Source: an uncultured Opitutia bacterium
GTDB taxonomy: Bacteria; Verrucomicrobiota; Verrucomicrobiia; Opitutales; UBA953
Assembly: GCA_903924185.1 (NCBI GenBank)
Contig: CAIYAN010000277.1
Span: 1-41,303, forward strand
Direction of reading: 5' to 3'
DNA length: 41,303 nt
Shown: positions 7,655-9,763 of the stretch, one piece after another
Layout: every line of letters starts with the position of its first letter
How positions within the stretch are numbered: the stretch's first letter is position 1
Made by a program: the position numbers and the translations under genes
The notes under the pieces: generated by a model
Told to the model about the DNA's origin: nothing
Database searches by the model: none
Seen by the model: only the letters and a program-made list of their open reading frames with translations

Positions 7655-8968
7655 ATGAAGACGCCCACCTGCATGTGCCGGAACCTCTTCTTGGGGCTGG
7701 GCCTGTTGCTGACCGCCGCCACGGCGCGCAGTCAAGAAGCCGAGCCTTTTGAAGATCCGCCAATCAACTATTCGGCGACGAAGCCGACCGACCGGGCGAC
7801 GAAACTCAACGAGGCCTTTCAAAAGCAGGCCGACGAGATCCGCGGCTGGCCCGCCCGCCGGCGACTCCGCTGGCTACTCGAACAACTCGAAGTCCCCCTC
7901 GATTCGCAAATCCTCGTTTTCAGCAAGACCAGCCATCAACGCGCGCTCATTGGCCCAAAGAACCCACGCGTCCTCTTCTTCTCGGACGAAGCCTATGTCG
8001 GCTGGGTGCCGGGCGGCGCCATGGAAGTCACGCTCTTCGACCCCGTCCTCGGGGCGACCTTCTATTTACTCGATGCGCAAGCGGACGAAGCCAAGCCGCT
8101 GCTCCAGCGCGACAACCAATGCCTCTCCTGCCACAAGAGCTATGAACGGACGCCCAGCCTACGGGCTCGGTCGGTCATGCCCGACGCTGAAGGCGAAGCC
8201 CTCAGCGGCTCCAGTATTTCCAATATCGAGCCGGATACCCCCTACACGGATCGCTGGGGCGGCTGGTATGTGACGGGTGCGCCCAGCCCATTTCGCCATC
8301 GTGGAAATACCGTAGGTAAGACGGAGGCCGACTTTCGCACCAGCGACGGCAAGGGCGGCGTCACCCTGCAAACGCTGAAAGATTACTTCGACATTGGTCG
8401 CTACCCGAAGCCGACGAGCGACATCGTCGCGCTGAGTATCCACGATCACCAAGTCTACGTCCATAATGTCATTGCCGCTGCCAACCAGACTGCCCGCCTG
8501 TCTTTGGCTCGCTGGCCAGCGACCCGCGAAATCCTGCAGTTACCAGCCAATGCACCGCTTGCTGGCTCCACGCTCGTCTCCCTGGCAAGCGAAGCCGACA
8601 AAGTAGTTGCTGCGCTTCTCTGCCGGGATGAACCGGCGTTACCAAGTGATGGGCTCCACGGCGATGGCGACTTCGAGAAGAGCTACGTGAAAAGCCGGCG
8701 GGTCGATGGACAGGGCCGGTCGCTCCGCGACCTAGACCTTAGGACGCGGCTTTTCCGTTACCGGTGCAGCCCCCTCATCTACAGCGAATCCTTCCGCGGC
8801 TTCCCGCCGGAACTGCGGACCTTGGTCCTCACCCGTTTGGGTGCCATCCTCCGGGCCGAAAGCCCCCCTGCGGACTACGCTTTCCTCCCAGCGGCGGAGC
8901 GCCAAGCCATCGCCGAAATCCTCACGGCGACCCTCCCCGACCTCCCGCCCGCTTGGGGTCAGAAGTAG
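7655..8968 (+). CDS. Secreted protein with a single CxxCH haem-type motif, function unknown
   Basis: Signal peptide MKTPTCMCRNLFLGLGLLLTAATARSQ; DNQCLSCHKSYERTPSLRARS. Confidence 0.8.
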   Translation: MKTPTCMCRNLFLGLGLLLTAATARSQEAEPFEDPPINYSATKPTDRATKLNEAFQKQADEIRGWPARRRLRWLLEQLEVPLDSQILVFSKTSHQRALIGPKNPRVLFFSDEAYVGWVPGGAMEVTLFDPVLGATFYLLDAQADEAKPLLQRDNQCLSCHKSYERTPSLRARSVMPDAEGEALSGSSISNIEPDTPYTDRWGGWYVTGAPSPFRHRGNTVGKTEADFRTSDGKGGVTLQTLKDYFDIGRYPKPTSDIVALSIHDHQVYVHNVIAAANQTARLSLARWPATREILQLPANAPLAGSTLVSLASEADKVVAALLCRDEPALPSDGLHGDGDFEKSYVKSRRVDGQGRSLRDLDLRTRLFRYRCSPLIYSESFRGFPPELRTLVLTRLGAILRAESPPADYAFLPAAERQAIAEILTATLPDLPPAWGQK

Positions 8969-9001
8969 TTTTTAATACTTCTTTTACAATTCCCCGGCGA
9001 G

Positions 9002-9763
9002 ATGTCGCTTGTGGGGCTTCGGTCACGTGGGCAAGATGTGCCCACGGATATGGCTACTTACCCCCTCCATCTCCAAGGCGGACACTTGTTCGTCGAGATT
9101 AACAACCAACGCTGGCTGTTCGACACTGGCACGGCCATCAGTTACGGCATGGCGCCGAGCCTGACGCTTGCGGAGCGCACCTTTACGCTGAAGCCCATTA
9201 TGACTGGCAAGCCTGGTAAGCCCATTATCGGCGTGCCGAAACTCATCCAATTCCTGGGCACCCCTTGCGCCGGTCTCTTGGGCATGGACATTATTGGCGA
9301 GTTCGACTGGACGCTTAACGCCGCCAAGCGCACTTGCACCGCGACGACGGAGGCCACGCTCATCCGCGACCGGAGCTTCCCCCTTAAGACAGAGAACGGG
9401 CAGCTTAGCACCCAGGTCGTGATCCGCGACCGCGAGTATCGGTTGCGCCTAGACACTGGCTTTCAGCTGACCTTTCTCGAGCACCCGGTGATTGAGAATT
9501 TTCCCTCGGCCGGCAAGGGCCGCGACTTTCACGTCTATTTCCTCGGGGGCTGGTTCCAGACGGATTCCTTTCACGTCCCGATGAAGCTAGGAGTGGAATT
9601 TGCGGCAGACAACCTCCACACTGGCCGGTTACCGGCGAGCCTCCGGAAGGAAATCCTGCCCGTGGACTTCGATGGCATCCTCGGGGCGGAATTCTTCTCC
9701 CGGCATTTTCTCGCCTTCGCCCCGCGCCGGCAGCTCATCGGCTTCCTGACCTCCGGCGAATAG
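9002..9763 (+). CDS. Two-lobed aspartic-protease-like (retropepsin/pepsin fold) protein
   Basis: Two DTG motifs (WLFDTGTAISYG; LRLDTGFQLTFLE), each followed by a GLLGMDII / GILGAEFF strand; alternative in-frame start at 9050. Confidence 0.7.
   Translation: MSLVGLRSRGQDVPTDMATYPLHLQGGHLFVEINNQRWLFDTGTAISYGMAPSLTLAERTFTLKPIMTGKPGKPIIGVPKLIQFLGTPCAGLLGMDIIGEFDWTLNAAKRTCTATTEATLIRDRSFPLKTENGQLSTQVVIRDREYRLRLDTGFQLTFLEHPVIENFPSAGKGRDFHVYFLGGWFQTDSFHVPMKLGVEFAADNLHTGRLPASLRKEILPVDFDGILGAEFFSRHFLAFAPRRQLIGFLTSGE

Follow-up and report, generated by a model that had tools for sequence, protein, structure and literature searches.

Duplication of a retropepsin-like half, followed by fusion of the copies, is the usual explanation of the pepsin fold. 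Pepsin homologues of bacteria have been in the literature since 2009 (PMC2761423), and shewasin A and shewasin D, both members of MEROPS family A1, are single-chain, two-lobed proteins with neither a signal peptide nor a prosegment (PMC2761423; PMC4814920); shewasin D is cytoplasmic (PMC4814920). Other bacterial members of clan AA with a DTG catalytic motif, namely APRc, RimB and RloA, are single-lobed, and RimB and RloA are dimers (PMC4140852; PMC11957791; PMC12239564). RimB is a cytosolic protease of narrow specificity, which trims polyglutamate tails off a ribosomal protein (PMC11957791). An aspartic protease was also reported in Akkermansia muciniphila, which belongs to the phylum considered here: Amuc_1434, of about 50 kDa, is pepstatin-sensitive, contains DTG and LLG, and has one reported hydrophobic-hydrophobic-Gly motif (PMC6982040).

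Here, we describe a protein of a freshwater Opitutae-like bacterium (uncultured Opitutia, UBA953; CAIYAN010000277.1), whose gene lies in a 41,303-nt stretch of DNA that is called the window throughout. Like the shewasins, the window protein is a single chain with two lobes and without a signal peptide, but it is much shorter, and its sequence does not match the pepsin family. It shares clan AA and the DTG motif with APRc, RimB and RloA, but carries both lobes in one chain, and it is set apart from Amuc_1434 by description only. The preliminary description of this DNA regarded pepsin-like two-lobed forms as mainly eukaryotic, a framing that was not supported. Fusion of two lobes in an aspartic protease is neither new nor unusual among bacteria: bacterial pepsins were published (PMC2761423), a secreted protein of this same genome contains two Asp_protease_2 (PF13650) domains, and a sample of 59 genomes from the phylum yielded at least six double-domain proteins of this kind. 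The protein in the same genome (C282; L001:565-1488, minus strand) is composed of 307 aa with DTGC and DSGA motifs and a start that resembles a signal peptide by eye, and its sequence marks it as a classical two-lobed clan AA paralogue. Such proteins have two D(T/S)G lobes per chain, as the window family has, and the two groups match collinearly by profile. The C282 protein, however, is longer, has the signal-peptide-like start and matches Pfam above the cut-off in both lobes, whereas members of the window family have about 220-240 aa, are leaderless and, where scanned, fall below every cut-off. What is new is therefore not the architecture but a compact, leaderless, uncatalogued family, together with a syntenic clade in which one of the two Asp residues was lost.

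The open reading frame at 9002-9763 (plus strand) and all motifs quoted for it in the preliminary description were verified in the sequence, but its start had to be moved. Translation almost certainly begins at the ATG at 9050, which is M17 of the listed frame, because bases 9002-9049 contain 1-nt indels and lack upstream ATGs in several orthologue genomes, and the conserved protein starts at MATYPLHLQGGHLFVEI in eight orthologous loci. From this ATG, nothing like a signal peptide is visible by eye before lobe 1, in line with the earlier remark that no secretion signal is obvious, and comparison of the orthologues likewise showed that the window clade is leaderless. The features of the gene are listed in Table 1, with residues numbered from the revised start.

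Table 1. Positions of the gene for the two-lobed protein, its lobes and its motifs in the window.
Feature	Position	Strand	Basis
Coding sequence of the two-lobed clan AA protein, 237 aa and stop	9050..9763	+	Conserved orthologue start; frameshifting indels upstream
Lobe 1, residues 1-104	9050..9361	+	Profile-profile match to lobe 2
Lobe 1 DTG (D25-T26-G27), putative catalytic Asp	9122..9130	+	D25 in 49/49 full-length members
Lobe 1 LLGMD, residues 76-80, psi-loop hydrophobic-hydrophobic-Gly segment	9275..9289	+	G78 and D80 invariant
Lobe 2, residues 105-237	9362..9760	+	Lobe-lobe profile match; lobe 2 of relatives matches PF13650, PF13975 and RVP below curated cut-offs
Lobe 2 DTG (D135-T136-G137, then F138), putative catalytic Asp	9452..9460	+	D135 in 47/49 members
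Lobe 2 ILGAE, residues 210-214, psi-loop segment	9677..9691	+	G212 invariant

For comparison of the lobes, 21 non-redundant family members were aligned, the alignment was cut at residue 104 and the halves were compared with hhalign. Lobe 1 matched lobe 2 at a probability of 94% and a score of 43.9, against a best score of 19.5 among 100 column shuffles and 14.7 for a reversed profile. The alignment places DTG on DTG and LLGMD on ILGAE and extends to the last strands, as expected from the earlier claim that each half has a DTG and an LLG or ILG segment. The score was 32.2 when DTG was masked in both halves and 25.0 when the LLGMD and ILGAE segments were masked as well, so the similarity of the lobes exceeds the motifs alone. 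These profile comparisons indicate that the proposed internal duplication is genuine.

Pfam, NCBIfam and the PDB sequences contain no match to the window protein taken alone, nor does Asp_protease_2 (PF13650) match it at E values up to 10; searches of PHROGs and PADLOC gave no meaningful matches, and neither plasmid searches with two relatives nor phage searches that started from the window protein and from a relative on a viral-class contig found anything. Because no Pfam, NCBIfam or PHROGs model matches the window protein, such genes are likely to be listed as hypothetical in annotations. The lack of a database match is also what would speak for a mispredicted frame or a chance resemblance, an explanation of negligible probability that is refuted by conservation: orthologues are present in several genomes, the motifs are invariant, the two lobes are strongly similar, and dN/dS between the window gene and seven close orthologues is 0.05-0.11, with low dN in both lobes. 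The gene is under strong purifying selection, and both lobes are constrained.

Placement of the protein came from its family. Eight of 16 members weakly match Asp_protease_2, gag-asp_proteas and RVP; matches of relatives to PF13650, PF13975 and RVP are below cut-off, and distant relatives scanned one by one stay below every curated cut-off, that of Asp_protease_2 included. The family profile finds PDB 9iy9, an "Exported protein" of 420 aa, as its best PDB match (E 1.8e-7), collinear from the LLG-D segment of lobe 1 via the linker to the DTG of lobe 2, and Ddi1/Ddi2 at E 0.003-0.004. The 9iy9 protein resembles the window family in the number and order of its motifs (two DTGs, two LG-x-D segments), but it is named as exported and has about 150 additional N-terminal residues. 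In profile-profile comparison with the secreted two-lobed Asp_protease_2 proteins, the match reached a probability of 98.9% (E 3.7e-17) over 164 collinear columns, which cover the end of lobe 1 and the whole of lobe 2. The aspartic-protease-like character suggested at the outset thus stood, and these profiles identify the window protein as a member of clan AA (retropepsin-like) in a compact, uncatalogued two-lobed family. In retropepsin family A2 a single lobe forms a homodimer, whereas two duplicated lobes here share one 237-aa chain.

Of the retropepsin and pepsin families that had been put forward for profile checks, only the former kind was recovered. Membership of the pepsin family (MEROPS A1), as a cytosolic bacterial pepsin of the shewasin type, is suggested by the single leaderless chain with two lobes, each having a DTG and a hydrophobic-hydrophobic-Gly segment, as in bacterial pepsins (PMC2761423; PMC4814920); at the level of sequence, the pepsin arrangement of one catalytic Asp in each of two lobes is indeed found. 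However, when the 16 members were compared with Pfam at E values up to 10, not one matched the pepsin family, whereas eight matched retropepsin-like families; no pepsin is among the listed PDB matches of the family profiles; and the window protein, at 237 aa, is shorter than the roughly 370-560 aa that can be estimated from gene lengths in PMC2761423. The Ser/Thr that follows D-x-G is found in lobe 1 (DTGT) but not in lobe 2 (DTGF), although bacterial pepsins and renin also break this rule in motif 2 (PMC4814920). Membership of A1 is very improbable and was set aside on these sequence grounds.

Conservation within the family bears on whether the two lobes form an active protease. Close orthologues (82-97% identity) are found in Opitutae and related Verrucomicrobiota genomes, and distant relatives (24-48%) elsewhere in the class and phylum. 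In an alignment of 16 homologues with 24-98% identity, both DTGs are invariant in all 16, down to 24% identity. The Gly of the hydrophobic-hydrophobic-Gly psi-loop (LLG in lobe 1, ILG in lobe 2) is invariant at G78 and G212, as are H12, F14, S31, G70, L76, D80, D159, F160, G167, G192, P195, I210 and P225. Among 49 full-length members, D25 is never replaced and D135 is replaced twice, by Ala in both cases.

The exceptions belong to a sister clade of type 1, the type to which the window protein belongs, and this clade comprises G683, G690 and G251, three genomes from the window's genus in which the gene occupies the same, syntenic locus. The DTG of lobe 1 is kept, but that of lobe 2 is changed to ASG in G683 and G690 and to SSG in G251, where the ends of two contigs each carry a part of the gene. 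In the tree, the two full-length sequences with Asp loss are placed next to the window clade, and this grouping is fully supported. The G683 and G690 proteins are 82% identical, with dN 0.125 and dS 0.945; one lobe has lost its catalytic residue in this clade, and the gene is still under purifying selection. Because the clade is still constrained, selection may not preserve catalysis in every part of the family, and this loss is the main reason why catalysis is not treated as settled here. It raises an alternative that we consider unlikely but worth weighing, in which the protein has kept the two-lobed clan AA fold as a pseudoprotease, or as a scaffold for peptide binding, with a conserved role other than proteolysis. 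The duplicated fold would then be turning into a conserved single-Asp pseudoprotease in this genus, and the family may chiefly serve to bind peptides or proteins, or to regulate its two-Asp paralogue, rather than to cut. The Phe after the lobe 2 motif in the window clade (DTGF instead of the usual DTG-A/S/T) points in the same direction and counts against proteolysis. Both Asp residues, however, are retained in the window clade and in nearly all other members, including those from other families of the phylum; this argues against disuse, since drift would be expected to erase unused Asp residues. The syntenic clade offers a ready comparison for a conserved non-proteolytic role of the fold.

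With most of the family retaining both Asp residues, we consider it probable that the window protein is a cytosolic, single-chain, two-lobed clan AA aspartic endopeptidase, made when a retropepsin-like lobe was duplicated and the copies were fused in one chain. Pepsin and retropepsin suggest by analogy that the lobes would pack as a pseudo-dimer, in which D25 and D135 would form the catalytic dyad and jointly position the catalytic water above a cleft for the substrate. AlphaFold gave no reliable model, which counts against this reading, with a pLDDT of 37 from a shallow alignment of eight close homologues and of 38 from the still shallow alignment to which the viral-contig relative was added. 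The protein would act in the cytosol, in limited, substrate-specific proteolysis and not in nutrition, because it is leaderless, its distribution among genomes is sporadic, and known cytosolic aspartic proteases of bacteria, RimB among them, have narrow substrates; the published data on cytosolic ones concern shewasin D (PMC4814920) and RimB (PMC11957791). By this analogy, an endopeptidase of narrow specificity is the likeliest function. The family would represent a compact and probably cytosolic bacterial case of the duplication, with halves still recognisably alike by profile.

Within the GTDB family of the window, a match was present in 42 of 79 genomes, and every one of the 42 belongs to the genus of the window. 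Two main paralogous types are found there: type 1 and type 2, which is about 24% identical to it, occur together in three genomes, and a third, L017-like form is present in G098 and G710. Type 1 lies in a block with the order sigma-70 gene, gene for a 437-aa CxxCH protein, protease gene and GDSL lipase gene, and type 2 has another, equally recurrent neighbourhood. One type 2 relative in G674 (L066:1498-2208, minus strand) reads DIG instead of DTG in lobe 1, with the Asp retained, and the type 2 gene of G669 (L090:383-1218, minus strand) is broken into overlapping frames, by frameshifts or assembly errors.

In the window, the gene upstream (7655-8968, plus strand) encodes the 437-aa protein, which has a signal-peptide-like start, one CxxCH motif (QCLSCHK) and no Pfam or NCBIfam match. 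It was considered as a functional partner and rejected: most genomes of the genus contain it, as a rule with no type 1 gene, and therefore adjacency does not show partnership. No obligate partner gene or substrate was found for the window protein. Right after the stop codon of this upstream gene, the intergenic stretch at 8969-8990 (TTTTTAATACTTCTTTTACA) is near-constant in the orthologues, and the bases beyond it vary; it is possibly a promoter or another regulatory element of the protease gene.

The relative on the viral-class contig (L100:6001-6657, plus strand; IMG/VR IMGVR_UViG_2728369487_000001) has 218 aa, two DTGs and 18-26% identity to the family. The contig is 43 kb long, and the neighbours of the gene are an ORF that resembles an amidase by eye and others of no assigned function; this relative is possibly a two-lobed aspartic protease borne by a phage or prophage.
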